64,000 bases of DNA from a virus: positions 62,001 to 126,000 of the IMG/VR virus record IMGVR_UViG_3300036770_005052; one strand, 5' to 3'. Shown here piece by piece: positions 47,564-62,475 of this stretch. The notes below the pieces were generated by a model, which saw nothing but the letters and a program-made list of their open reading frames with translations, had not been told where the DNA came from and searched no databases. The position numbers and the translations under genes were made by a program. Numbering within the stretch: position 1 is the stretch's first letter; the number at the start of each line of letters is the position of its first letter.

Positions 47564-47606
47564 CTGGCACAGGGTATCTCCACAGGTGCCCTTTTTGCCG
47601 TATAAT
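47564..47606 (+). promoter_or_regulatory. Repeated promoter module, copy 2, with terminator
   Basis: ACTGGCACA (GGCACA 47566-47571), 29 bases, TATAAT 47601-47606. GGCAC (47566-47570) can pair with GTGCC (47586-47590), followed by TTTTT (47592-47596). Confidence 0.8.
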
Positions 47607-47627
47607 AATTTCAGTTCAAACAAACCA

Positions 47628-47798
47628 ATGGACGACCAACACACTCTCAACGTGCAGATCGCTGACACGCTTGAGAAGATCCAACACATCAATCCTGTGT
47701 TGTATGGTTTCTGGTATAGTAAGTTGTATCCTCCTCATGGCGACACCAAACACTGGACTACTGAAACTCTTGTCCATTTAAACAATCTTTTAAAATGA
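47628..47798 (+). CDS. Hypothetical protein (56 aa)
   Basis: A 56-residue protein (MDDQHTLNVQIADTLEKIQ...). The ATG at 47628 is 22 bases after the -10, whereas the frame extends upstream through the promoter without a good start. The stop overlaps the next start. No family recognised. Confidence 0.62.
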   Translation: MDDQHTLNVQIADTLEKIQHINPVLYGFWYSKLYPPHGDTKHWTTETLVHLNNLLK

Positions 47799-47968
47799 TT
47801 AGAGCAATCCTTAATCAAGTTCCAGTTAAATATGGATCTTATACTGCTGAAGGTAACAAGATCCGCCGAACATTCTCCAACGGTTTCAGTTACATCGTAG
47901 AAGAATGTAACTCACCAGAGGAAGCACAACGCATCGTCAGTGATCTCAACTATCTTACAAGCAAATGA
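47795..47968 (+). CDS. Hypothetical protein (57 aa)
   Basis: A 57-residue protein (MIRAILNQVPVKYGSYTAEG...) with a YIVEECNSPEEAQRIVSDLN helix. It overlaps both neighbours by four bases. No family recognised. Confidence 0.6.
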   Translation: MIRAILNQVPVKYGSYTAEGNKIRRTFSNGFSYIVEECNSPEEAQRIVSDLNYLTSK

Positions 47969-48252
47969 CTGAAACCAAAACCTATCCCTACCTCAAATAC
48001 ATTCCTCATTTTGTTGCAATTCGGTTGATTGTGCTTGGTCCCTTTGCGATTGCACAAGCAACGGCAGAGTTCATCTCCAACTCTCTGGATAAATTTACAT
48101 ACAAACTTGATAAACTTCTTCCATCACCTTATATTGAAAAGCAAGTAGAATGGGATCAGTTGCCCAAACAAAATCAAGAAGCGATTGAGTATCTTGCAAA
48201 AAAGCGTGATACTACCAAAGAACGAATTCTTATTCAAACTGTGAAACCATGA
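47965..48252 (+). CDS. Hypothetical protein with hydrophobic segment (95 aa)
   Basis: Residues 12-36 are hydrophobic (PHFVAIRLIVLGPFAIAQAT), possibly one membrane helix. The rest is helical and charged, ending in LPKQNQEAIEYLAKKRDTTK. Function unknown. Coupled to both neighbours by ATGA. Confidence 0.6.
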   Translation: MTETKTYPYLKYIPHFVAIRLIVLGPFAIAQATAEFISNSLDKFTYKLDKLLPSPYIEKQVEWDQLPKQNQEAIEYLAKKRDTTKERILIQTVKP

Positions 48253-48488
48253 CTAAACAACTACCACAAAAAACACACGCAGAGACACTAATTAAGGTCA
48301 CAGAAGAATACACTCTACGACCCAAAACAGGTGATCGTGCTCGTGTATGTATTGCTACTCTTCAATATCTACTGGACAACTTTGCTTACAATGTTGAGTA
48401 TGATGCTGATGGTTGGGGTGGTTCTGTTAAATGTGTAGAAACTGAAGACATTGAACATCTTATTTACCAACTGCAAAAACTGAAATGA
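48249..48488 (+). CDS. Hypothetical protein (79 aa)
   Basis: A 79-residue protein (MTKQLPQKTHAETLIKVTEE...) with ARVCIATLQYLLDNFAYNVEYDADGW. No family recognised. Its stop overlaps the first copy of the NYLCLxDGVVEY paralogue. Confidence 0.6.
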   Translation: MTKQLPQKTHAETLIKVTEEYTLRPKTGDRARVCIATLQYLLDNFAYNVEYDADGWGGSVKCVETEDIEHLIYQLQKLK

Positions 48489-48661
48489 ACTACCTCTGCC
48501 TACTTGATGGTGTTGTAGAATACGCCAGCACAGATCTCTACCAATTCAATCATTATCGTATGATGTATTACGAAGACCACAAAGATGCTGATGTAGAGTA
48601 TCTTGTGCTAACTGATGAAGAGTATAATGCTATGTTCCCTGTAGAGGAGGATGAAGAATGA
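48485..48661 (+). CDS. NYLCLLDGVVEY family protein, copy 1 (58 aa)
   Basis: A 58-residue acidic protein beginning MNYLCLLDGVVEYASTDLYQ and ending in a run of acidic residues. It is a clear paralogue of the gene at 49521 (about 80 percent identical by eye), one kilobase downstream, on the other side of a promoter module. Function unknown. Confidence 0.68.
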   Translation: MNYLCLLDGVVEYASTDLYQFNHYRMMYYEDHKDADVEYLVLTDEEYNAMFPVEEDEE

Positions 48662-48942
48662 GCGGCGGACACTTCAACGATTGCGGATACGAATACTATA
48701 ATGTCTCACAGTTTGCTGATGAACTTGAAGCAGAAGTTCGTAACAACTTTGAGAAGGATGAGTATGGTTATGCCTATGAGTATCCCCCAGAAGTTTGTGA
48801 GTATCTTTTAGAACAGGTGCCCAAAATGCGTAAGATGGCAGAGATTATGAGGGCGGTGGATTACTTATACAGCGGCGACCACGGTAGCGATAGTTTTATG
48901 GAAAGGGTGAAAGAAGTAGAAGAGAAATATAAGGACACTTGA
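48658..48942 (+). CDS. MSGGHF-family phage protein (94 aa)
   Basis: The protein starts MSGGHFNDCGYEYYNVSQFADELEAEV and has PKMRKMAEIMRAVDYLYSGDHG. The MSGGHF start and the VDYLxSGDxG segment are familiar from a widespread phage and bacterial family without assigned function. Its last residues, KDT, are encoded by the conserved upstream part of the next promoter module. Confidence 0.72.
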   Translation: MSGGHFNDCGYEYYNVSQFADELEAEVRNNFEKDEYGYAYEYPPEVCEYLLEQVPKMRKMAEIMRAVDYLYSGDHGSDSFMERVKEVEEKYKDT

Positions 48943-48946
48943 AGAA

Positions 48947-48989
48947 CTGGCACAGGGCATCTCCACAGGTGCCCTTTTTGCCTTATAAT
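48947..48989 (+). promoter_or_regulatory. Repeated promoter module, copy 3, with terminator
   Basis: ACTGGCACA (GGCACA 48949-48954), 29 bases, TATAAT 48984-48989. AGGGCA and TGCCCT flank a 10-base loop and are followed by TTTTT. Confidence 0.85.
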
Positions 48990-49011
48990 ACTCTTATAAG
49001 CAATCAAACCG

Positions 49012-49278
49012 ATGGACTACGAAACTGAAATCATAGATGGACGCAAAGCAGTTGTCCGTCATTTCTTCAAATCACACGAAATTCAAGTTGGTTCTCGTTG
49101 GGCACGGGCAGATGGTTCTAAAGGTTTTGTGACCGTTGAAGGTCTCAATTCTTATGGGAGCACAGACCCTTGGTATGAAGTAGTTTATTCTTGGGAAGAA
49201 AATGGTGTGAAGAAAATCTGGCAAAAAGAAACTTTTGCCTTTCAATGTCGTTATTGTTTGATTATTGAGGACACTTGA
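49012..49278 (+). CDS. Hypothetical protein (88 aa)
   Basis: An 88-residue beta-rich protein beginning MDYETEIIDGRKAVVRHFF, with IQVGSRWARADGSKGFVTVEG and a WYEVVYSWEENG strand. The start resembles MNYETDIII of the gene at 60849. The end EDT is encoded by the next module. Function unknown. Confidence 0.65.
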   Translation: MDYETEIIDGRKAVVRHFFKSHEIQVGSRWARADGSKGFVTVEGLNSYGSTDPWYEVVYSWEENGVKKIWQKETFAFQCRYCLIIEDT

Positions 49279-49282
49279 AGAA

Positions 49283-49325
49283 CTGGCACAGGGCATCTCC
49301 ACAGGTGCTCTTTTTGGTTTATAAT
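49283..49325 (+). promoter_or_regulatory. Repeated promoter module, copy 4, with terminator
   Basis: ACTGGCACA (GGCACA 49285-49290), 29 bases, TATAAT 49320-49325. The hairpin AGGGCA/TGCTCT is followed by TTTTT. Confidence 0.83.
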
Positions 49326-49348
49326 ACTCTCATACACACAGACACCTG

Positions 49349-49519
49349 ATGACTTTTCTATCTGGACTTGAAACTTACTTTCTGTTTTTTATTGGAGTTT
49401 ATGCGGTAAATCAGGTTTGGAATTTCTTTACAAAAGAACGAACCCAAATTCAAATCTTCACCGAAGCACTTCTTTGGGCAGGAGTTTGGATTGTTTTTGA
49501 TAAAATCGTTGGTATTTGA
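49349..49519 (+). CDS. Small membrane protein (56 aa)
   Basis: Two hydrophobic segments, about residues 3-22 (FLSGLETYFLFFIGVYAVNQ) and 38-54 (ALLWAGVWIVFDKIVGI), flank a short charged loop. Probably spans the host membrane twice. First gene of its operon. Function unknown. Confidence 0.65.
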   Translation: MTFLSGLETYFLFFIGVYAVNQVWNFFTKERTQIQIFTEALLWAGVWIVFDKIVGI

Positions 49520-49520
49520 A

Positions 49521-49700
49521 ATGTCTCTCAATTATTTGTGCCTTGTTGATGGTGTCGTAGAATACGGCAGTACAGACCTCAACCAATTCAATCATTATCG
49601 TATGTTGTATGCCGAAGACCACCAAGATGCTGATGTAGAGTATCTTGTGCTGACTGATGAAGCATACAACGAAATGTTCCCTTGTGAGGATGAAGAATGA
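49521..49700 (+). CDS. NYLCLxDGVVEY family protein, copy 2 (59 aa)
   Basis: A 59-residue paralogue of the gene at 48485: MSLNYLCLVDGVVEYGSTDL, with DVEYLVLTDEAYNEMFP and an acidic tail. The DNA is also similar, so the duplication is fairly recent. The ATG at 49521 follows the previous stop by one base; an upstream in-frame ATG at 49491 would overlap. Confidence 0.68.
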   Translation: MSLNYLCLVDGVVEYGSTDLNQFNHYRMLYAEDHQDADVEYLVLTDEAYNEMFPCEDEE

Positions 49701-49978
49701 CTAACGAAGAACTCCCAGTATCAAACGAATTCATCACATTTGTGAGAATTCGACTTGACCACGAACAAAAACAACAATTCCGTCGTTATCTAAATCTCCA
49801 TTATCTTGGTGATGTGAATTGTAATGAGTATGATGAGAATATGAAAATTGTTCCCAAATACCCAGAGAAAGAAACACAAGAGTTCAAAGATGCTATGTGG
49901 AGAGCAGATATGTCAGTAGATTATCAAGTCAAAGTAGTTTATGATGTAAATGGTCAATGTAAATTGGAGTTGCTATGA
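49697..49978 (+). CDS. Hypothetical protein (93 aa)
   Basis: A 93-residue protein (MTNEELPVSNEFITFVRIRL...) with a DHEQKQQFRRYLNLHYLGDVN helix and a C-terminal YQVKVVYDVNGQCKLEL strand pair. No family recognised. Coupled to both neighbours. Confidence 0.62.
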   Translation: MTNEELPVSNEFITFVRIRLDHEQKQQFRRYLNLHYLGDVNCNEYDENMKIVPKYPEKETQEFKDAMWRADMSVDYQVKVVYDVNGQCKLELL

Positions 49979-50142
49979 TTGACCTCAAAAGATATAAAAT
50001 CACTATTACTGTCACCACAAGAGATAGTGCTTTTGATACAAAAATTGGAGACCCTATTTGGCATCTCCTTGATATTGAAAATGGAGAACGACTTGATAGT
50101 GTTTCTTTACCTGTTGAATTACCTTTGATTAATTATGAATAA
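49975..50142 (+). CDS. Hypothetical protein (55 aa)
   Basis: A 55-residue protein (MIDLKRYKITITVTTRDSAF...) rich in beta strand. It overlaps the next gene by eight bases. No family recognised. Confidence 0.55.
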   Translation: MIDLKRYKITITVTTRDSAFDTKIGDPIWHLLDIENGERLDSVSLPVELPLINYE

Positions 50143-50398
50143 ACTCTTTCAATACGATAAAAAAGTTTGGGAAAATGATGAAACTGACCGCACTTGGCAG
50201 TTCGGTGTCATCAACAATCGTTCATTACTTTGGGTGAATTATGAAAATCCCAGTAGTTTAGTTCATAGTAATGGTGGATTTCACATCATGCTCTCATTTC
50301 TTACTTCTTCTTCTCTTTTTGGAGTAGATTTTCAAGTTGGTAAGATTGGTTTGAGTTTTAACTTTTTCACAGAATACTTTGATGGGTGGGATGACTAA
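50135..50398 (+). CDS. Hypothetical protein (87 aa)
   Basis: An 87-residue aromatic-rich protein (MNKLFQYDKKVWENDETDRTW...) with FHIMLSFLTSSSLFGVDFQV and FNFFTEYFDGWDD. No family recognised. It shares one base with the next start. Confidence 0.6.
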   Translation: MNKLFQYDKKVWENDETDRTWQFGVINNRSLLWVNYENPSSLVHSNGGFHIMLSFLTSSSLFGVDFQVGKIGLSFNFFTEYFDGWDD

Positions 50399-50598
50399 TG
50401 TTTAACTTCAAAGAGGACTGGGAAGAACCAACTCGTAAGGCAATTCAAAAAATGCTGACTTATAAGGGATACATTCCATCCAAAGACCTCAACGAGTATC
50501 AGTATCAAACCTATCTTCAAGTAGCATCACCATACGAACTTGAAAAGGACATTATCACCGAAAAAACGATGCTTAAAGTAAATGATGAAGAATTATGA
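50398..50598 (+). CDS. Hypothetical protein (66 aa)
   Basis: A 66-residue helical protein (MFNFKEDWEEPTRKAIQKML...) with YKGYIPSKDLNEYQYQTYL. Coupled to both neighbours. No family recognised. Confidence 0.58.
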   Translation: MFNFKEDWEEPTRKAIQKMLTYKGYIPSKDLNEYQYQTYLQVASPYELEKDIITEKTMLKVNDEEL

Positions 50599-50828
50599 TT
50601 AAAATCTATTGTGTGGTTGATAATGTTGATTTGGGTTATCACGTTCTGTGTGCTTCCACTTCCAAGGATAAAGCACAAGTAGCATTAGATATAAAGATTA
50701 AACAAAAATATGATTATGCTATTAAACAACAAGTGCTTCGTGGATTTGATTACGAGAAAGCAAAAGAAAAAGTAGATGAATGCTTCTGGACTCCTTATGA
50801 AATTATTGAGATTGAGGTGGAAGAATGA
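50595..50828 (+). CDS. Hypothetical protein (77 aa)
   Basis: A 77-residue protein (MIKIYCVVDNVDLGYHVLCA...) with strand, helix (KDKAQVALDIKIKQKYDYA) and acidic end IIEIEVEE. Similar YCVVDNxDLGYHV starts occur in small phage genes in my recollection. Function unknown. Confidence 0.6.
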   Translation: MIKIYCVVDNVDLGYHVLCASTSKDKAQVALDIKIKQKYDYAIKQQVLRGFDYEKAKEKVDECFWTPYEIIEIEVEE

Positions 50829-51064
50829 ATAAGGACGCATACTACGACTGGATTGATGAAAACGACACATATCCAGAACATTCTCATAAGTGGATAGTGG
50901 GACTTTATAACAAATATGAAGGTGTAGAGGGACTTCATAGATACTTTGGAGTTTTTGAAACCAAAGAAGAAGCAAAAGTATTCGCAGCAGATTATAAAGA
51001 CAAATATACAAAACCAGGATTTATTTCAAGTATAAGAGTGTTCCCTTTGTGTGAGGTATTATGA
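50825..51064 (+). CDS. Hypothetical protein (79 aa)
   Basis: A 79-residue protein (MNKDAYYDWIDENDTYPEHS...). The segment HRYFGVFETKEEAKVFAADY has the strand-helix look of small phage proteins that pair with the neighbour downstream. No family recognised. Confidence 0.58.
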   Translation: MNKDAYYDWIDENDTYPEHSHKWIVGLYNKYEGVEGLHRYFGVFETKEEAKVFAADYKDKYTKPGFISSIRVFPLCEVL

Positions 51065-51261
51065 CCAACCCTGATTACCGAATTGAAGAATGCTTTGATT
51101 TTGATTGTATGACTACTTACTATGTTATTCAAAGATATAATGTTGTTCAAGCAGAGTATGTTCTTCACTCAACAAAAAGATTTGGACAACTTATGCAAGC
51201 AAAAGAGGCAATTAGGATGTTAAGGAGATACAAAGAACCAATTTATCATTATATGGAGTGA
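51061..51261 (+). CDS. Hypothetical protein (66 aa)
   Basis: A 66-residue protein (MTNPDYRIEECFDFDCMTTY...) with YYVIQRYNVVQAEYVLHSTK and a basic helix. The layout parallels the preceding protein (strands, then helix). No family recognised. Confidence 0.58.
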   Translation: MTNPDYRIEECFDFDCMTTYYVIQRYNVVQAEYVLHSTKRFGQLMQAKEAIRMLRRYKEPIYHYME

Positions 51262-51264
51262 GAA

Positions 51265-51441
51265 ATGACAAAACTCTACAATCGTCCTATGAATTTCTTT
51301 GAGAAACTTTCTGCTGGGTATTATTGGTTTGGTGAATGTTGGAGTGAGTGGTGCTATACTATGAGAAGTGAAGACGGAGAGTTCTTTAACTATCTTCAAA
51401 GTGATTATGTCCGTTATGAACAGGATATGTATTATGACTGA
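51265..51441 (+). CDS. Hypothetical aromatic-rich protein (58 aa)
   Basis: A 58-residue protein (MTKLYNRPMNFFEKLSAGYY...) with many Tyr, Trp and Phe (WFGECWSEWCYTM). It overlaps the next gene by eight bases (ATGACTGA). No family recognised. Confidence 0.58.
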   Translation: MTKLYNRPMNFFEKLSAGYYWFGECWSEWCYTMRSEDGEFFNYLQSDYVRYEQDMYYD

Positions 51442-51607
51442 TTGGTTGTCTGGTTTTAGAGAAGAAATCAAACAAATTAGAGAAGACAACAAACAAATTA
51501 GAAAGGAAGTTGAAAGATTGCGAAAAGAAAATGAAGCACTTCGTTCCATTACTCCTAAAAAATTATTAGAGATTGTGGAAAAATCTGTAAAGGAGGACAC
51601 TTTCTAA
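51434..51607 (+). CDS. Coiled-coil protein (57 aa)
   Basis: A 57-residue protein (MTDWLSGFREEIKQIREDNK...) whose residues 8-40 are a strong coiled coil (IREDNKQIRKEVERLRKENE). The ATG at 51434 is preferred to an upstream start at 51368 that would overlap almost the whole preceding gene. Its C-terminal EDTF is encoded by the conserved upstream part of the following promoter module. Confidence 0.62.
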   Translation: MTDWLSGFREEIKQIREDNKQIRKEVERLRKENEALRSITPKKLLEIVEKSVKEDTF

Positions 51608-51608
51608 A

Positions 51609-51651
51609 CTGGCACAAGACCTCACCACAGACCCTGTGGATGCCCTATAAT
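51609..51651 (+). promoter_or_regulatory. Repeated promoter module, copy 5 (no T-run)
   Basis: ACTGGCACA (GGCACA 51611-51616), 29 bases, TATAAT 51646-51651. CCACAG and CTGTGG form a 6-bp hairpin with a 3-base loop. No T-run follows. Confidence 0.78.
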
Positions 51652-51676
51652 ACTCTCATACACAAAGGAACTCCAA

Positions 51677-51961
51677 ATGCTTGATGCTTTTACTGATTAT
51701 CCTATTCCATCTTATGGTGATGTTGCGGGAGAAAAAGCACCTATTCGTAGAGCAAAAATCTTGACCTACGATAGAAATAAGTATTGTGATGTGCTTGTCT
51801 ATCAAGTAGATAAAGATGGAGATTTGAGAGGAACTGTTGTTAATTTTAAGCAGTTTTATCTTTATAAAAATGAAGCACGACTTGATGATGGCATTCCATT
51901 CACTGATGAAGAACTGAAAACTCTTCCTTGGACTAAAATAAGTTCTCCTCATTCCATTTGA
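51677..51961 (+). CDS. Hypothetical protein (94 aa)
   Basis: A 94-residue protein (MLDAFTDYPIPSYGDVAGEK...) with APIRRAKILTYDRNKYCDVLV and DLRGTVVNFKQFYLY strands. An AAAGGAACT ribosome-site context lies upstream. It is alone in its transcription unit, since another -10 overlaps its stop. No family recognised. Confidence 0.65.
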   Translation: MLDAFTDYPIPSYGDVAGEKAPIRRAKILTYDRNKYCDVLVYQVDKDGDLRGTVVNFKQFYLYKNEARLDDGIPFTDEELKTLPWTKISSPHSI

Positions 51962-51967
51962 TATAAT
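51957..51967 (+). promoter_or_regulatory. Short promoter variant TTTGATATAAT
   Basis: TATAAT at 51962-51967 overlaps the stop of the upstream gene and is followed by CCTCATACACAAAGGACTG like the full modules, but lacks GGCACA and the hairpin. The same TTTGATATAAT core recurs at 60817-60827. Confidence 0.6.
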
Positions 51968-51988
51968 GACCTCATACACAAAGGACTG

Positions 51989-52195
51989 ATGACTAACACC
52001 GCATACCAAATCTGGGAAACATTCAAAGCAGAACTTACACAACCAGCAACAGATGATATGAAAGAAGCATTAGCATCTTCTATTCGTGTGATTTCTTCTC
52101 TCATTTATAGAGATGGAGTGCTTGCAGATGAACCTTGGCATTTTTATATTGCTCAAGAACTAAATGAATATGCTGATGAGGTGGAGGCACTATGA
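51989..52195 (+). CDS. Small paralogue family A, member 1 (68 aa)
   Basis: A 68-residue acidic helical protein (MTNTAYQIWETFKAELTQPA...) ending EVEAL. It shares length, start and end with the genes at 52192 and 52610, so the three look like tandem duplicates. AAAGGACTG lies just upstream as ribosome site. Function unknown. Confidence 0.65.
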   Translation: MTNTAYQIWETFKAELTQPATDDMKEALASSIRVISSLIYRDGVLADEPWHFYIAQELNEYADEVEAL

Positions 52196-52398
52196 CTGAA
52201 AGAGCACAACAGATTATGGATGTTTTCTATAAGGACGAAGATTTGGATGGTGATTTTATTCCAGATAAAATTGTTGTTGCGAATGTTCTTCGTAAATTGA
52301 ATAGTATTTTTGCTGAAGAAGGATATGGTGGTGATGAATTTTCTTGGCGTGTTTTTAGTGAAATTATTGATATAATTGATGAATTGGAGGCACTCTAA
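52192..52398 (+). CDS. Small paralogue family A, member 2 (68 aa)
   Basis: A 68-residue protein (MTERAQQIMDVFYKDEDLDG...) ending IIDELEAL. The MTERAxxIM start and DELEAL end match the gene at 52610. It is coupled to the previous gene by ATGA and shares one base with the next. Function unknown. Confidence 0.65.
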   Translation: MTERAQQIMDVFYKDEDLDGDFIPDKIVVANVLRKLNSIFAEEGYGGDEFSWRVFSEIIDIIDELEAL

Positions 52399-52613
52399 TG
52401 ATTTTAGATGAAGAAATCCGTGAACTTGCTAACACCTATGGGTTTGATAGACACATATGTAAAACAACACACGACATTTACTGGGAATGTGATGAAAAAG
52501 ACTTCTTGAAGTTTGCCCGAGAACTTTATGATGAGGGTTATACTAAAGGTTTTAAAGTAGGGCACGATGCTGGTTGGGAATTAAATGAAGAAGTATCACG
52601 CAGAGGATTATGA
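52398..52613 (+). CDS. Small paralogue family B, member 1 (71 aa)
   Basis: A 71-residue protein (MILDEEIRELANTYGFDRHI...) with WECDEKDFLKFARELYDEGY. The order of elements (D-E-x-I-x-x-L-A, then GFD, then FARxx) recurs at 54480 and 54916 and is familiar from short genes of many phages. Function unknown. Confidence 0.65.
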   Translation: MILDEEIRELANTYGFDRHICKTTHDIYWECDEKDFLKFARELYDEGYTKGFKVGHDAGWELNEEVSRRGL

Positions 52614-52780
52614 CTGAAAGAGCAAAAAAGATTATGAAAGCATACGAAGCAGAGGATACATACAACTTTCCAAATGATGGAGTTGCTGCTGCTCTCCGTA
52701 AGGTTGTAGAAGAACTCAAGTATATCGGTATTACTGAAAAGAACATCCTTGAACTTGCTGATGAATTGGAGGCACTATGA
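52610..52780 (+). CDS. Small paralogue family A, member 3 (56 aa)
   Basis: A 56-residue protein (MTERAKKIMKAYEAEDTYNF...) ending ELADELEAL. It is a shorter relative of the gene at 52192, with family B's member inserted between them. Overlaps both neighbours by four bases. Confidence 0.62.
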   Translation: MTERAKKIMKAYEAEDTYNFPNDGVAAALRKVVEELKYIGITEKNILELADELEAL

Positions 52781-52965
52781 TTACTCTTGATACACTAAAA
52801 GATAGTGTTTATTCTCTTCATCTCACAATAGAGCAGGATGAACAAGTTATGGATATTATAGAAACTGCTTATCGTCTTGGATGTGAAAATGGGTATGATG
52901 AAGCAGGAAGAATATATGCTCCAATTATTGATAAACTTATGACTTCTGTGGAAGAACTGAAATGA
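52777..52965 (+). CDS. Hypothetical protein (62 aa)
   Basis: A 62-residue helical acidic protein (MITLDTLKDSVYSLHLTIEQ...) with VMDIIETAYRLGCENGYDEAG. No family recognised. Confidence 0.6.
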   Translation: MITLDTLKDSVYSLHLTIEQDEQVMDIIETAYRLGCENGYDEAGRIYAPIIDKLMTSVEELK

Positions 52966-53183
52966 AAAACTTTGATGAACTTGATTGGATAGTTTTGTCT
53001 GTATTCTTTATTATAATCGTTGCTGCTACTTCTATCACTTATAGTGAGCAACAACAACGAGCACTCTTTCAACAAACATACAATAAGAACTTGGAGTGTC
53101 GTCAAGCACTCAAAAATAATACAAAAAGTTTTGTTAATGAGATTTGTGGTCCTATTCCTGTGATTGGAGATTTTGTGAAATGA
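52962..53183 (+). CDS. Small membrane protein (73 aa)
   Basis: One transmembrane helix at about residues 9-27 (IVLSVFFIIIVAATSITYS), then a soluble tail with two Cys and KNLECRQALKNNTKS. The C-terminus VNEICGPIPVIGDFVK is hydrophobic. Followed by another membrane protein. Function unknown. Confidence 0.65.
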   Translation: MKNFDELDWIVLSVFFIIIVAATSITYSEQQQRALFQQTYNKNLECRQALKNNTKSFVNEICGPIPVIGDFVK

Positions 53184-56239: not shown

Positions 56240-56283
56240 CCGTCACAAGGGCACTTGAAATCAGGTGCCTTTTGTTGTATAAT
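56240..56283 (+). promoter_or_regulatory. Repeated promoter module, copy 8, with terminator
   Basis: CCGTCACA (GTCACA 56242-56247, one change from GGCACA), 30 bases, TATAAT 56278-56283. GGCAC/GTGCC hairpin followed by TTTTG; the spacer is identical to copy 7 over 27 bases. Confidence 0.75.
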
Positions 56284-56306
56284 GACTTCATACGCACAGA
56301 AACCTA

Positions 56307-56950: not shown

Positions 56951-57153
56951 CTGAAATACCAGAACCAAAAAAGTGGAGTGAGACTTACGATAAAGAACTC
57001 ACACTTGAAGAACTATTTCAACTGATTGGTGATGTTGAGTGGAACTTAAAGGATTATATTTGGGAACTTAAACAAGAAGTTGAAGAACTAAAAAAATTAG
57101 CACACTTTCACGACGATATGTATACTGAAAAAGGTGAATTGATTAGAAAATGA
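56947..57153 (+). CDS. Hypothetical acidic helical protein (68 aa)
   Basis: A 68-residue protein (MTEIPEPKKWSETYDKELTL...) with a coiled-coil-like WELKQEVEELKKLAHF. The ATG at 56947 overlaps the previous stop by four bases. It lies between the two genes that share the VKYQRVEEPKPQTLF module. Confidence 0.6.
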   Translation: MTEIPEPKKWSETYDKELTLEELFQLIGDVEWNLKDYIWELKQEVEELKKLAHFHDDMYTEKGELIRK

Positions 57154-57611
57154 CTGACGAACAAGGAAACTTGGAATGGGAAGAACTACGACTTCAAATA
57201 GAACAAAAAGCAAAAGAAATTGGAGACATTGTGAACATTCTTGAACGAAGGAGACAAAAACTTAAAGAAATCAACGACACAAACAAAGCAGTAGAGAACA
57301 AACGGAAAGAAAATCTTATTAGTGACCTACAATCCAAAAACTGGTATGTGAATATGAGGGAATTTATGTATCCAAAGGTGGAAGTGGTTGATGATGAAAT
57401 TGTTACGATTAATGGTGTAAAGTATCAACGAGTAGAAGAACCAAAACCACAGACACTTTTTCAGCATTTGAATTCTTTTGGTATTGTTGGTGCTGAAGGC
57501 ATCTGTAATATTGTAAGAGGTTGGTTGATTGACAACACAGTAATTGAAACTGAAGATGCTGAAAAGGTTACATTTACTATTCATAAAGAACAATTACAAA
57601 CACCAAAATGA
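57150..57611 (+). CDS. Coiled-coil protein with VKYQRVEEPKPQTLF module (153 aa)
   Basis: Residues 5-60 are a coiled coil (LRLQIEQKAKEIGDIVNIL). Residues about 90-106 carry INGVKYQRVEEPKPQTLF, identical in most positions to the gene at 56579, also at DNA level. The end is a helix-strand part. It is among the largest proteins of the arm. Function unknown. Confidence 0.65.
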   Translation: MTDEQGNLEWEELRLQIEQKAKEIGDIVNILERRRQKLKEINDTNKAVENKRKENLISDLQSKNWYVNMREFMYPKVEVVDDEIVTINGVKYQRVEEPKPQTLFQHLNSFGIVGAEGICNIVRGWLIDNTVIETEDAEKVTFTIHKEQLQTPK

Positions 57612-57781
57612 CTAACTTACTCAAATACATCAAATCTCTAAAAACAATTTATGTTCCTTCACTTTGGTTTGGTGTTCTGTTAGTTGCTTTGTTATTTCCA
57701 CAGTATGTTTTGTGGTTTATGTTTGGAACTGCTTGGGGAGTTTCGTGGATGTTTGCTTACAATTGGTTTCACGACAAATGA
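57608..57781 (+). CDS. Small membrane protein (57 aa)
   Basis: Two hydrophobic helices, about residues 17-34 (PSLWFGVLLVALLFPQYV) and 36-52 (WFMFGTAWGVSWMFAYN), follow a basic N-terminus. Likely in the host membrane. Coupled to both neighbours. Confidence 0.65.
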   Translation: MTNLLKYIKSLKTIYVPSLWFGVLLVALLFPQYVLWFMFGTAWGVSWMFAYNWFHDK

Positions 57782-57918
57782 TTGACTACACCACAATAGA
57801 ACTGGAACTTATCTTTGAGGAAGTCGCAAAACTTCCAAAAACCACAGACACTTCCTATGTGGTTCCAGATGTGTTAGAATTGGTGAGACAACGGATTTTT
57901 GATTATGAACTTCAATGA
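57778..57918 (+). CDS. Hypothetical protein (46 aa)
   Basis: A 46-residue acidic helical protein (MIDYTTIELELIFEEVAKLP...). The ATG overlaps the previous stop as ATGA; the same frame extends upstream through the membrane protein gene without a better start. No family recognised. Confidence 0.55.
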   Translation: MIDYTTIELELIFEEVAKLPKTTDTSYVVPDVLELVRQRIFDYELQ

Positions 57919-58147
57919 TTTGCCCAATAATTCTTGGGAAAAAGTAATGGTTCATCTTGTGGAACATATTGGTGGGGATGGTGGGTCTCTTGTAAAATGG
58001 AGTGGAGAAATCCCAGACCCAGTAGAAACAGCAACTGCAATTTTGGGAATGGTTCAATATTATGACCCAGATTATCGGGACTTACCAGAAGGTGCTCTTG
58101 CTAAAGGTTTTAGAGCATTTTATAGATTGGGAGAATATGAAGAATGA
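57905..58147 (+). CDS. Hypothetical protein (80 aa)
   Basis: An 80-residue protein (MNFNDLPNNSWEKVMVHLVE...) with GEIPDPVETATAILGMVQYY and GALAKGFRAFYRLG. The ATG at 57905 overlaps the preceding gene by 14 bases. No family recognised. Confidence 0.6.
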   Translation: MNFNDLPNNSWEKVMVHLVEHIGGDGGSLVKWSGEIPDPVETATAILGMVQYYDPDYRDLPEGALAKGFRAFYRLGEYEE

Positions 58148-58350
58148 CTTACGAAGATTTTTTGAATATTCCAGGTGGTGTTCTCAAAGATTTGCAAACT
58201 ATTCTTATCTTGAAAGACAAGTATCATATGGATATTACCACTGAAGAAAGAAAAATCTGCGAACATATAAACAGGTTTGCTGACGAACGAAGAAAATCTG
58301 CCGAACTCTGGAAACAAAAAGAACAACTTGAAAACCTTTTTAGAAAATGA
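58144..58350 (+). CDS. Hypothetical basic helical protein (68 aa)
   Basis: A 68-residue protein (MTYEDFLNIPGGVLKDLQTI...) with a long charged C-terminal helix (RFADERRKSAELWKQKEQLE). Coupled to both neighbours. No family recognised. Confidence 0.6.
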   Translation: MTYEDFLNIPGGVLKDLQTILILKDKYHMDITTEERKICEHINRFADERRKSAELWKQKEQLENLFRK

Positions 58351-58616
58351 AATCCTTCAACATCAACTATACCGTCAAAGTAAAACTCACAAAGTTCGGT
58401 AAAGAACTTCATAAGAAACTCTGGGAAGATTTTTGGAACTCTCACGGTAAATTGGATAAGTTTCCTTATACTCCACCAAAGGAAGATGAAAATGGATACT
58501 GTGAGTTTGTAATGTGGGACTTGATGAATAAGTTTGGTTCTTATTGTGTATTGGGATGCGAACAACCTTTTGATACTATTATTCTGATTGATGAGGAGTA
58601 TTTGAAAGATGATTGA
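58347..58616 (+). CDS. Conserved phage protein (89 aa)
   Basis: An 89-residue protein (MKSFNINYTVKVKLTKFGKE...) with DENGYCEFVMWDLMNKFGSY and a final EQPFDTIILIDEEYL. I recall this strand, helix and F.MWxLM.xFG core from unassigned proteins of several tailed phages. It overlaps the next peptide by eight bases. Confidence 0.65.
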   Translation: MKSFNINYTVKVKLTKFGKELHKKLWEDFWNSHGKLDKFPYTPPKEDENGYCEFVMWDLMNKFGSYCVLGCEQPFDTIILIDEEYLKDD

Positions 58617-58701
58617 GTTTCTTATGATTGTTATGCTTGTTTATATGGGAGGTTCTATGTTTTTGGGACTACTTGAATACCTTATGGATAGAAAGAAATG
58701 A
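58609..58701 (+). CDS. 30-aa membrane microprotein
   Basis: A 30-residue peptide (MIEFLMIVMLVYMGGSMFLG...) that is almost a single transmembrane helix followed by a basic DRKK end. It overlaps the previous gene by eight bases and the next by four, so it fits the coupling pattern of the operon exactly. Too short to assign. Confidence 0.55.
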   Translation: MIEFLMIVMLVYMGGSMFLGLLEYLMDRKK

Positions 58702-58880
58702 CTGAACCAAAAATAAAGAATATTCTTATACCCTACAAAAATAAAACGGTTTATGCTCCTTGTATTAAAACAGAATATGGTTGGTGTATTAATATGACTG
58801 ATGAGGTTATGAAAATTTTGGAAACAAATGAAATAAGAATTGACGGTGTTATTACTGTGGAGGATTTGAGAGATGACTAA
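58698..58880 (+). CDS. Hypothetical protein (60 aa)
   Basis: A 60-residue protein (MTEPKIKNILIPYKNKTVYA...) rich in beta strand with two Cys. It overlaps the next gene by eight bases. No family recognised. Confidence 0.58.
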   Translation: MTEPKIKNILIPYKNKTVYAPCIKTEYGWCINMTDEVMKILETNEIRIDGVITVEDLRDD

Positions 58881-59028
58881 ACTTGAACTTATTCAAAGAT
58901 TACAGAACTCCCCTTTTACTAGATGGTGGTGGAAAATGTGGATACATAACACAACCAGAAGAATTATAATGGTTCCTTTCTATAAAAATCCAGGAAAACA
59001 ATATGAACTTTGTAAATTTAGAGAATAA
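58873..59028 (+). CDS. Hypothetical basic protein (51 aa)
   Basis: A 51-residue basic protein (MTKLELIQRLQNSPFTRWWW...) with WWWKMWIHNTTRR. It shares one base with the next start. The basic, Trp-rich centre could bind membranes or nucleic acid. No family recognised. Confidence 0.55.
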   Translation: MTKLELIQRLQNSPFTRWWWKMWIHNTTRRIIMVPFYKNPGKQYELCKFRE

Positions 59029-59174
59029 TGACTGAAAAAAAGATTGTACATTTTGGGAAAGAATACATAATTCCACAAAATGTTATTGATGATTTGATGA
59101 AGTATCACGGTCTTGATGCCGTAGAAGCAGTGGAACAAATAGTAGAATTGAATGATGAGGTAAAAAATGACTGA
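59028..59174 (+). CDS. Hypothetical acidic protein (48 aa)
   Basis: A 48-residue protein (MTEKKIVHFGKEYIIPQNVI...) with a DDLMKYHGLDAVEAVEQIVE helix that has the spacing of a short ribbon-helix or helix-turn-helix element. It overlaps the next gene by eight bases (ATGACTGA). Function unknown. Confidence 0.55.
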   Translation: MTEKKIVHFGKEYIIPQNVIDDLMKYHGLDAVEAVEQIVELNDEVKND

Positions 59175-59388
59175 CAGATTAAATCACAAACTTGATGTAA
59201 GTAAAATTCAAACTCTTGAAGATGTGCGAAATGTTTTTGAGTGTATGAACTTGGTTGCTAATTCGAGTGAAACTAACGAACAGTATGAACTTCTCAAAGA
59301 GTATTTTACTATTCCTTATGTTCCAGAACCTTTGAAGTTTGATAAGGCAGATTTTGACTATCAAAATTATATTGAGGATTATAAATGA
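59167..59388 (+). CDS. Small paralogue family C, member 1 (73 aa)
   Basis: A 73-residue acidic protein (MTDRLNHKLDVSKIQTLEDV...) with LLKEYFTIPYVPEPLKFD. The order of NxKL start and (Y/K)xxxxIPxxPxxL motif recurs in the next gene, which suggests an old duplication. Function unknown. Confidence 0.58.
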   Translation: MTDRLNHKLDVSKIQTLEDVRNVFECMNLVANSSETNEQYELLKEYFTIPYVPEPLKFDKADFDYQNYIEDYK

Positions 59389-59918
59389 CTGAAAAAATAG
59401 GATACAAACTCAATCCAAAGAAACTCAAAAAAGCACCTCAATACATTACTCCTTATTTGTTTCTTGGTGCTTTTTATTACACCGAAGATTATGAGTATTT
59501 TGATGTAATCAAACCTTATCTTGATATTCCAGAACCACCCAAGTCATTAGAAGAAATCTCACAAGAATGTGAAGAGAAGTTTGATAAACATATTGAGAGT
59601 ATCAAGCATAAGTTTGCTGAACTCAAATGTCATCAAGAGTATCTGTACAATCAAAAGTTCAATAGGATTATTGAGAACTTTGAATACGCTAAGGAACACG
59701 GACAATTCCCAGTCAGATTTACAGTAGGTAATTTAGATTGTTCTAACCTTATTGCGAATAATACTGTATCTTGGAGCACAGAGTTTAGAATTGGTACAGA
59801 TGAAGTAGGATACTGGGACATCAAACCAAACATCAAAGTGTATCTGAAAAAGAAACCAAACCGTATTGTGAGATACTTTACCAAACTGCTTCTTGATTTT
59901 ACTTGGAAAGACAAATGA
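59385..59918 (+). CDS. Small paralogue family C, member 2, extended (177 aa)
   Basis: A 177-residue protein (MTEKIGYKLNPKKLKKAPQY...). After VIKPYLDIPEPPKSLEEI, which resembles the previous gene, comes a coiled-coil part (CEEKFDKHIESIKHKFAEL) and a beta-rich end with RFTVGNLDCSNLIANNTVSW. It is the largest protein of the small-gene arm. Function unknown. Confidence 0.64.
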   Translation: MTEKIGYKLNPKKLKKAPQYITPYLFLGAFYYTEDYEYFDVIKPYLDIPEPPKSLEEISQECEEKFDKHIESIKHKFAELKCHQEYLYNQKFNRIIENFEYAKEHGQFPVRFTVGNLDCSNLIANNTVSWSTEFRIGTDEVGYWDIKPNIKVYLKKKPNRIVRYFTKLLLDFTWKDK

Positions 59919-60118
59919 AACTAACTGCTGCTGATATGATGGTGATTGTGGATACTCTCAATCATAGTTTGCGAATTGGAAATTATGGTGGAGGATTTAC
60001 TACAGAAACCCGAGAACAAACTATGAATGCTGTGATTGATATTATGGCAAATATGGGTGCAGAAGTTGTCTGTGGTGATGTAGAACCTATTGTAGTGAGT
60101 GGAGATGTTGAAGAATGA
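59915..60118 (+). CDS. Hypothetical protein (67 aa)
   Basis: A 67-residue protein (MKLTAADMMVIVDTLNHSLR...) with GGGFTTETREQTMNAVIDIM. The xxxxLxxSLRIxxxGGxFTxETREQ pattern is familiar from unassigned phage proteins. The ATG at 59915 overlaps the previous stop by four bases. Confidence 0.62.
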   Translation: MKLTAADMMVIVDTLNHSLRIGNYGGGFTTETREQTMNAVIDIMANMGAEVVCGDVEPIVVSGDVEE

Positions 60119-60420
60119 CTAATCCTCTTATAGACAAATATAATGAAATCTACGGAAAGAAAGAGATTAAAAGTCCAATAACTTTATCAGACCCAAATAT
60201 TTCACTTACAACAATACCATCAGTAGCAACATCAACCACAGGTATTACAAAGGCATCAAATTTTCTAACTCACGATATTCACGATACGGAGAAAACTTTT
60301 CTACAAGTCGCAGATAAAATCAAACAAGGAAAAGCAAAGGTAGGAAGTGTGAGTATAGAACACGATGTTATGCTTATGGGTGGAACAAAAGTATTTTTTG
60401 AGGTTTATGTTAACAATTGA
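60115..60420 (+). CDS. Hypothetical Thr/Ser-rich protein (101 aa)
   Basis: A 101-residue protein (MTNPLIDKYNEIYGKKEIKS...). The middle is Thr/Ser-rich (LTTIPSVATSTTGITKAS), then a helix with FLQVADKIKQGKAKVGSV and a final strand pair. No family recognised. Confidence 0.6.
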   Translation: MTNPLIDKYNEIYGKKEIKSPITLSDPNISLTTIPSVATSTTGITKASNFLTHDIHDTEKTFLQVADKIKQGKAKVGSVSIEHDVMLMGGTKVFFEVYVNN

Positions 60421-60565
60421 AGAACTCCAAAAATACTTGGATGATAATAAAATCACCCTTGAAGAGTATATGAGAGCAAATATGATTACTGATGAAGACA
60501 GGAAATATTTTGATAAGATATGGATGGATGCGATTTATAAGAACTTGGGTGAGGACACTTTCTAA
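60407..60565 (+). CDS. Hypothetical acidic helical protein (52 aa)
   Basis: A 52-residue protein (MLTIEELQKYLDDNKITLEE...) with an acidic helix pair. The ATG at 60407 overlaps the previous gene by 14 bases. Its end EDTF is encoded by the conserved block of the next promoter module, as in the gene at 51434. Confidence 0.6.
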   Translation: MLTIEELQKYLDDNKITLEEYMRANMITDEDRKYFDKIWMDAIYKNLGEDTF

Positions 60566-60566
60566 A

Positions 60567-60609
60567 CTGGCACAGGGGATGCTCTGGGTGCCTCTGTGGG
60601 TGGTATGAT
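60567..60609 (+). promoter_or_regulatory. Repeated promoter module, copy 9 (no T-run)
   Basis: ACTGGCACA (GGCACA 60569-60574), 29 bases, TATGAT 60604-60609. The spacer is GC-rich with weak pairing and no T-run. CTCTCATACACACAAAGGACTG follows. Confidence 0.72.
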
Positions 60610-60632
60610 ACTCTCATACACACAAAGGACTG

Positions 60633-60821
60633 ATGACTTCAAAAACCATATCAATTGGTGATTGGAAAATTAAAACTTTGACTGAAACAGAAGTCAAAGA
60701 TATTATTGCTATGCTTCGTCAGGCACAACAAGACAATCTTGATGATGAGCATTCTTATGAGTACTTCAAAAAATTAGCATCAAAAATTCACCGAATGGGA
60801 CTTGCTTTTCAATCTCTTTGA
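60633..60821 (+). CDS. Hypothetical protein (62 aa)
   Basis: A 62-residue protein (MTSKTISIGDWKIKTLTETE...) with VKDIIAMLRQAQQDNLDDEH. AAAGGACTG precedes the ATG. It is alone in its unit, since a new -10 begins at its stop. No family recognised. Confidence 0.62.
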   Translation: MTSKTISIGDWKIKTLTETEVKDIIAMLRQAQQDNLDDEHSYEYFKKLASKIHRMGLAFQSL

Positions 60822-60827
60822 TATAAT
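60817..60827 (+). promoter_or_regulatory. Short promoter variant TTTGATATAAT
   Basis: TATAAT 60822-60827 overlaps the stop of the upstream gene. The flank ACTCTCATAAGAAACAAACCG matches full modules, but GGCACA and the hairpin are missing. Twin of the site at 51957. Confidence 0.62.
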
Positions 60828-60848
60828 ACTCTCATAAGAAACAAACCG

Positions 60849-61022
60849 ATGAATTACGAAACTGACATCATCATTCATCAGTATTCATCTGATGGAGATT
60901 TTTATTACAAACTCAAAGTCACAGATGTAATGAATATGGATTATCTGTATATGGGTAATGCTCCAACACTTGAAGGTGTTATGGAATGTATCCAACTTCA
61001 CCTCAAACAACACCAGAACTGA
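60849..61022 (+). CDS. Hypothetical protein (57 aa)
   Basis: A 57-residue protein (MNYETDIIIHQYSSDGDFYY...) with LEGVMECIQLHLKQH at the end. The start and the preceding AAACCGATG context match the gene at 49012. Function unknown. Confidence 0.6.
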   Translation: MNYETDIIIHQYSSDGDFYYKLKVTDVMNMDYLYMGNAPTLEGVMECIQLHLKQHQN

Positions 61023-61023
61023 A

Positions 61024-61209
61024 ATGACTGACCAAGAAAAACTTTACAAACTCTGTATTCTTGAGTTGCTGATTGCGATTGATGAGGATGTAGTGGATTG
61101 GAGGAACTATCCTAAACTCTGGGAAGCAGTTAAACTTGCCGACAGAACTCTTGACATTTGGGCAGGAGACAATCTCAAACAAATGAAAGCAGAACTTGAA
61201 GAGGTGTAA
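61024..61209 (+). CDS. Hypothetical protein (61 aa)
   Basis: A 61-residue acidic protein (MTDQEKLYKLCILELLIAID...) with VVDWRNYPKLWEAVKLADR. The ATG at 61024 follows the previous stop by one base. No family recognised. Confidence 0.6.
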   Translation: MTDQEKLYKLCILELLIAIDEDVVDWRNYPKLWEAVKLADRTLDIWAGDNLKQMKAELEEV

Positions 61210-61216
61210 AAACTAA

Positions 61217-61411
61217 ATGAAATACAACATCAAAAAACAACAAATCATTCAAAATGAAGAAGAAGGTTGGAGTTTTCAATTTTGGGAAGAGGTAGATTTT
61301 GTAAAGATTGTTTATTTTGAACAACTACTTTCAAAAACAACAGAATTTCGTATTCCTAAAGATTGTGTAGAATATTTTATTGATGCTTTGGAGAACCTGA
61401 ATGACACTTGA
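61217..61411 (+). CDS. Small paralogue family D, member 1 (64 aa)
   Basis: A 64-residue protein (MKYNIKKQQIIQNEEEGWSF...) ending with TEFRIPKDCVEYFIDALENL. The IPKDCxxxFIDALExL end is shared with the gene at 62726. Its last residues NDT are encoded by the next promoter module. Confidence 0.66.
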   Translation: MKYNIKKQQIIQNEEEGWSFQFWEEVDFVKIVYFEQLLSKTTEFRIPKDCVEYFIDALENLNDT

Positions 61412-61415
61412 AGAA

Positions 61416-61458
61416 CTGGCACAGGGGGTCTCCACAAGACCCCTTTTTGCCTTATAAT
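61416..61458 (+). promoter_or_regulatory. Repeated promoter module, copy 10, with terminator
   Basis: ACTGGCACA (GGCACA 61418-61423), 29 bases, TATAAT 61453-61458. GGGGTC and GACCCC form a perfect 6-bp stem with a 7-base loop, followed by TTTTT. Confidence 0.86.
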
Positions 61459-61483
61459 ACTCTCATAGACAAAGGAACTCCAA

Positions 61484-61687
61484 ATGGCAATTGACACCAG
61501 CACCTGCATCAACATTCTTCCCGATGAGGAATGGTATTACACAGTTGAAGACTCAAATATTGTCACCAGTATGGATGGTTGCACCATTTCCTATTGGCAA
61601 GATGGAAAACGGCATACTCACATTACGATGGAAAAAGAAGAAGCACTCGCAGTAGCAGACGCAATTTACAAACTCTTTAAGAACTGA
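61484..61687 (+). CDS. Hypothetical protein (67 aa)
   Basis: A 67-residue protein (MAIDTSTCINILPDEEWYYT...) with HTHITMEKEEALAVADAIYK at the end, a helix plan similar to family D ends. AAAGGAACT precedes the ATG. No family recognised. Confidence 0.62.
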   Translation: MAIDTSTCINILPDEEWYYTVEDSNIVTSMDGCTISYWQDGKRHTHITMEKEEALAVADAIYKLFKN

Positions 61688-61688
61688 A

Positions 61689-62018
61689 ATGATTGACCTT
61701 TCACAACTGACCAAAGAACAACTCAACGAACTTGAACTTCAAATCCAAAAGCATAAGGAACAACAGAAGGTAAAGGATGCTTTGGAAAATCTAAAAGGTT
61801 ATAAAGTAACTTTTTATATGAGGTTTGACCCTGAAAAGCATAAAGATAATGATATGCTTACAGATGATGGAGAACTTGACCCAAACATTTTTGCTGATTA
61901 TCTGTGTGATAATCTTGTTACAGACCTGATTAGAAATTTTGAATTGTATGGTTATGAAGATGTGAGTTATCCTATTGTGGAGATAGCAACAGAAGAAGAA
62001 ATTAAACACCAATTTTGA
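61689..62018 (+). CDS. Hypothetical protein (109 aa)
   Basis: A 109-residue protein: a coiled-coil-like start (LTKEQLNELELQIQKHKEQQ) and an acidic beta/alpha end with DPNIFADYLCDNLVTDLIRN. No family recognised. Confidence 0.6.
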   Translation: MIDLSQLTKEQLNELELQIQKHKEQQKVKDALENLKGYKVTFYMRFDPEKHKDNDMLTDDGELDPNIFADYLCDNLVTDLIRNFELYGYEDVSYPIVEIATEEEIKHQF

Positions 62019-62028
62019 GGAAACTGAA

Positions 62029-62418
62029 ATGAAACCCTTTGATTACTATTCCAAATCACAAACTGCTTATCCCAACAAAAAGGATTACATCAAGTATTAT
62101 GTTTATGATAAGGGTGAAGTTCTTTGGTCTGGGCATGACTATGAAAAAACTAAACCTGAATTAGAAAAAGAGTATCCTGATGCTGTGATTCAGGTAGTTC
62201 TTGATAAAGAAGGATACAAAGCACACCAACTTCAATATGCAGATGAAAAGCATAAACTTCACGAGGAGTTTGTGAATGACCTTTTTGAGAACTTTAATGT
62301 GACTGATAATCCTAAAAGGCAAAAGGCATTTGACCTTGCTTGGGAAAAGGGACACTCTAATGGTCTTGAAGAAGTTTATAATGAGTTTTATGACCTTGTA
62401 GAACTTATTAAAGATTGA
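62029..62418 (+). CDS. Hypothetical protein (129 aa)
   Basis: A 129-residue charged protein (MKPFDYYSKSQTAYPNKKDY...) with a helical second half (QKAFDLAWEKGHSNGLEEVY). FDLAWEKGHSNG is familiar from small phage proteins without known role. GAGGAAACTG precedes the ATG. Confidence 0.62.
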   Translation: MKPFDYYSKSQTAYPNKKDYIKYYVYDKGEVLWSGHDYEKTKPELEKEYPDAVIQVVLDKEGYKAHQLQYADEKHKLHEEFVNDLFENFNVTDNPKRQKAFDLAWEKGHSNGLEEVYNEFYDLVELIKD

Positions 62419-62432
62419 GGACACTTCTCAAA

Positions 62433-62475
62433 CTGGCACAGTGGGTGCTTCACGGCATCCCAGATGCCTTATAAT
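62433..62475 (+). promoter_or_regulatory. Repeated promoter module, copy 11 (no T-run)
   Basis: ACTGGCACA (GGCACA 62435-62440), 29 bases, TATAAT 62470-62475. GGGTGC pairs with GCATCC. No T-run. GAGGACACTTCTCAA precedes it after the upstream stop. Confidence 0.78.

Follow-up and report, generated by a model that had tools for sequence, protein, structure and literature searches.

Genes and Modules in the Source Contig

The DNA considered here, referred to as the window, is a stretch of 64,000 nucleotides corresponding to positions 62001–126000 of a 144,422-base viral contig (IMG/VR record IMGVR_UViG_3300036770_005052). Its part between 46 and 63 kb is filled with short open reading frames (ORFs), mostly co-directional and overlapping or almost so. 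By megablast, the 46.5–64 kb segment matched four phage records, two each of S-PM2 and S-SRM01, with a coverage of 4%. These best matching annotated phages belong to the Kyanoviridae, and most of their small genes are annotated as hypothetical. Among the short ORFs of this T4-like cyanophage contig lie 11 copies of a module, distributed across 46–62.5 kb, in which an upstream box is followed by a 29–30 nt spacer and a TATAAT-like -10 hexamer. The nesting of a hairpin within this promoter-like layout, pointed out in a note made earlier from the sequence of the window (hereafter the original prediction), is confirmed as real. The exact pattern ACTGGCACA-N26-31-TATAATA occurs seven times in the window and in none of 100 dinucleotide shuffles; box, spacer and -10 are present where they had been placed. 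Including degenerate copies, ten modules fall within the range of the original prediction, which omitted an eleventh at 46172. It also overlooked that a 24-bp dyad, TGTGCCASTT-N4-AASTGGCACA, includes the upstream box as one of its two halves; the left half is degenerate in the studied phage.

Hairpins of the Window Copies

When the minimum free energy (MFE) of each spacer was compared with that of 1000 dinucleotide shuffles, eight of the 11 spacers (47562, 48945, 49281, 51607, 54411, 55873, 56238, and 61414) reached p < 0.05, and the Fisher combination over the 11 copies, with single values floored at 0.001, gave p = 2.6e-10. Folding above the shuffle level was not significant at 46172 (p = 0.085), 62431 (p = 0.126), and 60565 (p = 0.68, no real hairpin). 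The claim that most copies form a hairpin is therefore right for these eight and does not extend to every copy. The T-run that had been claimed for six copies (47564, 48947, 49283, 55875, 56240, and 61416) is found in all of them: a 9–10 bp stem with a 4–5 nt loop carries TTTT at its 3′ end, and the first one or two T of the run can pair within the stem. These six show the G+C-rich stem-loop followed by a U-run that defines an intrinsic terminator, which was not found at 46172 (weak stem), 51607 (short stem), 54411 (clear hairpin abutting the -10), 60565 (none), or 62431 (weak). A scan of both strands of the 64 kb for strong sites (contiguous stem, at least four G-C pairs, loop of 3–8, TTTT) found seven, namely the six T-run modules and an unrelated site at 1304–1326. 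A looser scan of 45–64 kb found 18 terminator-like sites, compared with 10.4 ± 2.9 in shuffles; ranked by G-C pairs, the top three and four of the top five lie in modules. No Rfam family matched 45000–64000 at the gathering score.

All the modules are on the + strand. Among those of the T-run type, module 2 (47548–47613) has its dyad at 47548–47571, hairpin at 47571–47592 followed by the T-run, -10 at 47601–47606 and predicted +1 at 47613 (p = 0.016). Module 3 (48931–48996) is arranged in the same way (dyad 48931–48954, hairpin 48954–48975, -10 48984–48989, predicted +1 48996; p = 0.011), with a -35-like TCCACA at 48962 in the loop region, and so is module 4 (49267–49332; dyad 49267–49290, hairpin 49290–49311, -10 49320–49325, predicted +1 49332; p = 0.016), in which one stem pair is G-U where module 3 has G-C. 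Module 7 (55859–55925) combines a dyad at 55859–55882 with a hairpin at 55883–55906 followed by TTTT, a -35-like TTGAAA at 55890 in the loop region, the -10 CATAAT at 55913–55918 and a predicted +1 at 55925 (p = 0.001). In module 8 (56224–56290) the right half of the dyad is degenerate (AACCGTCACA), the hairpin at 56248–56271 precedes TTTT and holds TTGAAA (56255) in its loop region, and the -10 lies at 56278–56283 with a predicted +1 at 56290; no shuffle among 1000 folded as low. Module 10 (61400–61465) completes this type (dyad 61400–61423, hairpin 61423–61445 and T-run, -10 61453–61458, predicted +1 61465; p = 0.024).

The other five modules are more diverse. Module 6 (54397–54462; dyad 54397–54420) has an 11-bp stem with one bulge at 54423–54449, which lacks a T-run and abuts the -10 at 54450–54455 (predicted +1 54462; 0/1000 shuffles as low). 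Module 5 (51593–51658; dyad 51593–51616) has a 6-bp stem CCACAG/CTGTGG at 51625–51639, again without a T-run, a -10 at 51646–51651 and a predicted +1 at 51658 (p = 0.040); the CCACAG/CTGTGG pairing is absent from similar spacers at the loci L077 and L112. In module 11 (62417–62482; dyad 62417–62440) a short stem GGCATC/GATGCC at 62454–62468 stands beside the -10 at 62470–62475 (predicted +1 62482). Modules 1 (46158–46224; dyad 46158–46181) and 9 (60551–60616; dyad 60551–60574) share the -10 TATGAT, at 46212–46217 and 60604–60609, with predicted +1 at 46224 and 60616, respectively. Three further candidates occur 3–14 kb downstream in the contig. One of them, L020:3333, has a strong hairpin (0/1000 shuffles as low), and L020:4258 (p = 0.53) and L020:14148 (p = 0.71) have none by the same comparison of MFE with 1000 dinucleotide shuffles.

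Some other repeats were noticed in the same region. Two half modules, at 51962–51995 and 60822–60855, consist of a -10 with its leader (TATAAT, CTCATA, and a start codon) placed straight after a stop codon, with no dyad or hairpin. A duplicated stretch (48488–48655 and 49530–49697, 84% identity) flanks the modules at 48945 and 49281, and a 70-base repeat (83% identity) is found in neighbouring ORFs at 56713–56782 and 57395–57464.

Hairpins in Related Viral Contigs

Relatives were collected by an IMG/VR scan with the box-to--10 pattern, which gave at least 120 stretches and in which the second half-site upstream of the box emerged. Modules were detected through dyad, distance and -10, ignoring the spacer sequence. 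From 778 modules, 604 remained without near-identical spacers and 585 with spacers of 28–31 nt. Removal of 229 that lacked a downstream ORF, 26 located within an ORF and 12 at a contig edge left 318 filtered modules from 142 sources. These steps also discard real copies: of the 11 window modules, nine are in the set of 585 and six in that of 318, and module 8 was left out for two mismatches in its box.

A strong stem, defined by a score of 14 or more, is present in 151 of the 318 filtered spacers, whereas 30 dinucleotide-shuffled sets had a mean of 43.3 and a maximum of 53. Control flanks contained few such stems (8/318 after the -10 and 20/314 before the dyad). Two types can be recognized among the 151. 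In the T-run type (39 stems), 6–11 bp, mostly 7–8, are followed by four to seven T; in the T-less type (67 stems), a stem of 5–13 bp ends at most 3 nt from the -10 with no such run. The remaining 45 belong to neither. Terminator geometry, and with it a predicted terminator, is assigned to 6 of the 11 window copies and 39 of the 318 filtered modules. The run is strand-specific: at least four T follow on the 3′ side in 39/151 stems, compared with four or more A on the 5′ side in 4/151 (p = 3e-9). Both types are represented in P-SSM2, between annotated genes, at 53932 (PSSM2_066/067) and 57064 (PSSM2_071/072). With regard to gene context, strong stems occur in 116 of 216 modules with a co-directional upstream gene ending nearby and in 33 of 99 where none was called (p = 0.001). 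A further comparison of co-directional with divergent upstream genes (p = 7.5e-7) was withdrawn because only three divergent cases were left after filtering; most of the apparent ones seemed to be the palindrome read the wrong way round.

Selection on Pairing

Internal mismatches of the stems, scored by a rule blind to mismatch type, comprise 38 G·T, 5 A·C, and 10 others in the filtered modules (G·T vs. A·C, p = 4e-8). The unfiltered 585 gave 49 vs. 9, including 30 vs. 4 in the T-less type, and with one module per source from that set the mean was 13.1 G·T to 2.1 A·C (median p = 0.003). Since DNA pairing disfavours both mismatches equally, the excess of G·T points to a stem selected as sense-strand RNA and not as a DNA cruciform, and selection looks to act at the RNA level. 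With the stem placed before the predicted start, such RNA can only come from read-through out of the preceding gene.

The original prediction took the different but still paired stems of the window as compensatory changes. These occur at different positions of paralogous copies and are not by themselves formal covariation, although selection for pairing, as distinct from that formal argument, was confirmed on the larger set (38:5 for the mismatches; 151 strong stems vs. 43.3). In a formal count of pairs, all 12 changed on both sides in 11 modules of the same register, with 90% of the cells paired and no equal among 500 shuffles. This count illustrates the point and does not prove it, because the group was chosen by register, which is partly circular. 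A column-pair matrix at fixed spacer length showed no clear single helix, and stem registers vary between modules.

Promoter-like Features of the Module

Scans for the perfect dyad, with counts for viral contigs taken among the matches listed, provided 266 oriented dyads. A -10 with at most one mismatch follows at 29 nt in 64 of them, at 30 nt in 35, at 28 nt in nine and at 31 nt in six; other distances up to 59 nt have 0–5, except 40 nt with 16, most of which represent leader sequence behind a -10 at 29 nt. The predicted start, 12 nt from the first base of the -10, is a purine in 313 of the 318 filtered modules (A in 206, G in 107) and is followed by T at +2 in 265. At the 16–17 nt gap expected for a -35, TTG appears in 29 of the 151 hairpin modules, compared with 0.8 per other position. 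Fixed -10 distance, purine +1 and TTG enrichment are the features of a sigma-70-like promoter, and the module is predicted to be one. In 41 T-run hairpins, the centre of the loop is 1.5 ± 1.3 nt from the centre of the -35.

The enrichment of TTG is also seen without a strong stem (35/167). One S-SRM01 module (L011:29081) has a related dyad, a -35-like TTGATT, and no hairpin. The idea that hairpin modules lack a -35 was dropped, as TTG is enriched there too, and a test of -35 and hairpin as alternatives was not significant (29/234 vs. 62/351, p = 0.10). Some variants of the arrangement were observed. At the perfect dyads of L124, L125, L160, and L239, a -35-like TTGAC and TATAAT are both displaced by 11 nt away from the dyad, roughly a full helical turn, and at L016:14091 (contig position 14092) the box is followed one base on by the consensus -35 TTGACA and then TATAAT, with a spacing of 26 and no hairpin.

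Neither of two known promoter or operator types accounts for the module. Instead of a T4 middle promoter, in which the MotA box consensus TGCTTtA is placed 11–13 nt before TATAAT according to a passage of PMC1524935, it has the conserved box AASTGGCACA at 28–31 nt. The NtcA site, given as GTA-N8-TAC in a passage of PMC3037559, is by inspection not within the dyad consensus.

The Dyad and Its Distribution

Allowing up to three mismatches, the dyad was detected in eight of the 10 named cyanophages tested: B23 (16 sites), S-CRM01 (15), P-SSM2 (12), S-SRM01 (9), S-PM2 and P-SSM4 (4 each), and Syn9 and S-RSM4 (2 each). The studied contig has 6 and no site was found in T4, RB49, S-SM2, or S-SCSM2R; the reversed control pattern gave none in all 13 genomes at the same tolerance. 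In S-SM2, which has no dyad, a box, a T-run hairpin, and a hexamer resembling TATAAA are nevertheless present at L015:20006, and Syn9 has two exact box-to--10 matches with no obvious hairpin. The typed module had no match in plasmid records.

Prokaryote genomes contain the perfect dyad in only 13 stretches among 257 billion bases, and for this reason a host regulon was discarded as an explanation. Two of the stretches, L150 and L153, from metagenome-assembled bins (an uncultured cyanobacterium and a Flavobacteriales), have a -10 at module distance; these dyads may be phage DNA inside metagenome bins. A description of the dyad was not found in the literature searched, which includes passages of PMC4503421, PMC3037559, PMC1524935, PMC5348500, and PMC3950731 and, likewise, of PMC5931967, PMC7029224, PMC9692554, PMC6359870, and PMC6414667; an earlier description is possible.

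The S/S position of the dyad is complementary in only 162 of the 585 modules, which rules out the dyad itself as an RNA hairpin and argues that it acts as DNA. It is probably bound by a dimeric, probably phage-made regulator. Candidates were sought among 96 ORFs of the contig picked from 121 listed, with ORFs above 450 amino acids excluded. Among the families listed, PHROG 3636, named "DNA binding protein", was matched at contig positions 11752–12180 and also in nine of 14 control genomes; such a widespread family is probably no phage-specific regulator, and it was rejected as such. Pfam matches in these ORFs included a Bsp6I-type restriction endonuclease, a C-5 cytosine methylase, an SLH domain, a ferritin-like domain, CP12, and a histone H1-like Hc1 protein.

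Relation to Known Elements

Promoter-early stem-loops (PeSLs), said to go back to Arbiol in 2010 and Comeau in 2014, are reportedly composite elements of promoter and stem-loop terminator, repeated among small genes in the hyperplastic regions of T4-like phages. They are the closest known kind, a comparison drawn in part from passages of PMC4503421 and PMC3950731. Like PeSLs, the modules are repeated (11 copies in 46–62.5 kb) among short ORFs of a T4-like genome. Unlike in PeSLs, as far as the descriptions go, the hairpin of the module is flanked by an upstream dyad and the -10, its loop falls on the -35 position, there is a T-less class of hairpin, and T4 and RB49 contain no dyad at up to three mismatches. 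For recombination between copies, a hallmark of PeSLs, no excess specific to the modules was seen (35 homology ends to 2 crossings, compared with 225 to 28 at other junctions; p = 0.39).

Parts of the module have been recorded before. A passage of PMC4503421 gives the S-PM2 stem-loops 11369–11391 (after S-PM2p038) and 16829–16854 as possible PeSL parts. The former coincides exactly with the hairpin in the module that S-PM2 carries at 11361–11405, and the latter is outside any module. The same source, in the part available, names only the stem-loop after S-PM2p038, considers PeSL-driven acquisition unlikely, and places a promoter elsewhere (5322–5350). In a 12-kb stretch of S-CRM01 (HQ615693), two of the three Rho-independent terminators annotated by the depositors are module hairpins, and neither promoter nor dyad is annotated. 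The available passages of PMC3037559 report BPROM and TransTermHP predictions and NtcA sites in cyanophage genomes and do not describe the module. The haloarchaeal virus HGTV-1 has a TATA-box-like and inverted-repeat motif before most genes of one arm, likened to PeSLs in a passage of PMC3950731. By description, it resembles the modules in joining a promoter-like element with an inverted repeat, and differs in belonging to an archaeal virus. To judge by their sequence, the modules are real, selected and best filed with composite promoter-terminator elements. Combined start-stop elements are known in T4-type phages, and the tight nesting beside a shared 24-bp dyad looks like a new version of them.

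Proposed Mechanism and Alternatives

The module probably marks, as a composite element, the border between two transcription units that run in the same direction in a T4-like cyanophage. The sequence shows its architecture, its spacing, the conserved predicted initiator, stem selection that looks RNA-level and the strand-specific T-run; from these features we infer regulator binding, termination, initiation and a function for the T-less type, as follows. A dimeric, probably phage-made regulator would bind the 24-bp dyad as DNA, next to a sigma-70-type promoter with its -35 position 6–7 nt and its -10 29–30 nt after the dyad, and transcription would start at the purine 12 nt from the first base of the -10. 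About half of the modules carry a strong hairpin in the interval from dyad to -10. For the T-run type this would be the Rho-independent terminator of the upstream RNA, with its loop on the -35 position and its T-run just before the -10: a polymerase leaving the upstream gene would transcribe dyad and hairpin and terminate when it reaches the T-run, some 10 nt ahead of the following -10. The same DNA would serve to start the next unit, whose -35 position coincides with the hairpin loop. In the T-less type the stem reaching the -10 would mark the 3′ end of the upstream RNA, the A/T-rich -10 replacing the U-tract. Termination and initiation complexes probably cannot occupy the site together, and they may therefore compete. 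The original claim that one element ends one operon and starts the next is plausible from the sequence, in which a terminator-like hairpin selected for pairing lies in the promoter.

Several observations weigh against this boundary model. No strong stem is present in 167 of the 318 filtered modules, and only 39 of the 151 strong stems have a T-run, while 67 abut the -10 and 45 are of neither type; hence a terminator is not a constant part of the module. The modules come from related phages and their counts are not independent, and strand-biased C-to-T mutation could inflate the G·T excess. Finally, a protein binding the dyad was not found in the Pfam and PHROGs scans of the 96 ORFs, among the matches listed (25 of 56 and 25 of 114 families, respectively). 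The same scarcity of T-runs, with a poor U-tract in the stems abutting the -10, would suit hairpins with a role other than termination, namely the protection or processing of upstream mRNA at its 3′ end, the true ends being further downstream or set by collision with promoter complexes. This is rather unlikely, since the T-run type has terminator geometry with strand-specific runs (39 T-runs vs. 4 A-runs) and, of the seven strong terminator-like sites in the window, all but one belong to modules.

Another explanation is that the modules are ordinary PeSL cassettes selected mainly as short homologies for gene shuffling, with promoter and terminator as passengers. Shuffling of the surrounding genes is indeed seen when relatives are compared, module zones cover 7.2% of the region and contain 31 of the 308 homology ends, where about 22 would be expected, module-bearing junctions show 35 homology ends vs. 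2 crossings, and one gene common to L101 and L023 has both homology ends at or near modules. Nevertheless, the balance is similar at junctions that lack a module (225 ends, 28 crossings; p = 0.39), and the exact promoter spacing and conserved initiator indicate transcription as a selected function, which makes this explanation improbable. Even less credit is due to an inverted repeat acting as DNA, as a cruciform or a second protein site in the promoter, the role that the original prediction suggested for its remaining copies. T-less stems do extend to the -10 and keep dyad symmetry within the promoter core; yet G·T far exceeds A·C (38:5, and 30:4 in T-less stems of the unfiltered set), as fits RNA, whereas DNA pairing disfavours both. 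The stem sequences vary too widely to suit a sequence-specific protein, a strong stem is missing from about half of the modules, and what resembles a protein site is the dyad that contains the box. That hairpins are a by-product of G+C-rich spacers is hardly tenable. The spacers do have 54% G+C, compared with 37% after and 40% before the module, and shuffled spacers fold to some extent too, but the 151 strong stems exceed the shuffle mean of 43.3 with dinucleotides kept, and the combined p of the window is 2.6e-10.

Significance for Cyanophage Biology

A broader picture may tentatively be drawn, in which the accessory genes of the Kyanoviridae are largely under one switch: a dimeric phage-made regulator would bind the dyad and drive the promoter, the -35 would lie in the loop of the upstream terminator, polymerases coming from upstream would contend with promoter occupancy for one stretch of 40 bp, which would couple termination to initiation, and in the second class the -10 would double as the terminator's weak A/U tract. 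This picture is possible, and more doubtful than the boundary function of the module itself. With promoter and terminator within the same 40 bp, their interplay is testable, and the presence of the dyad in the cultured phages P-SSM2, P-SSM4, S-PM2, and S-CRM01 makes it testable with laboratory strains. The module points to a probably phage-specific regulator, and a recognisable unit of dyad, promoter and terminator would provide a readable transcription map of cyanophage genomes.

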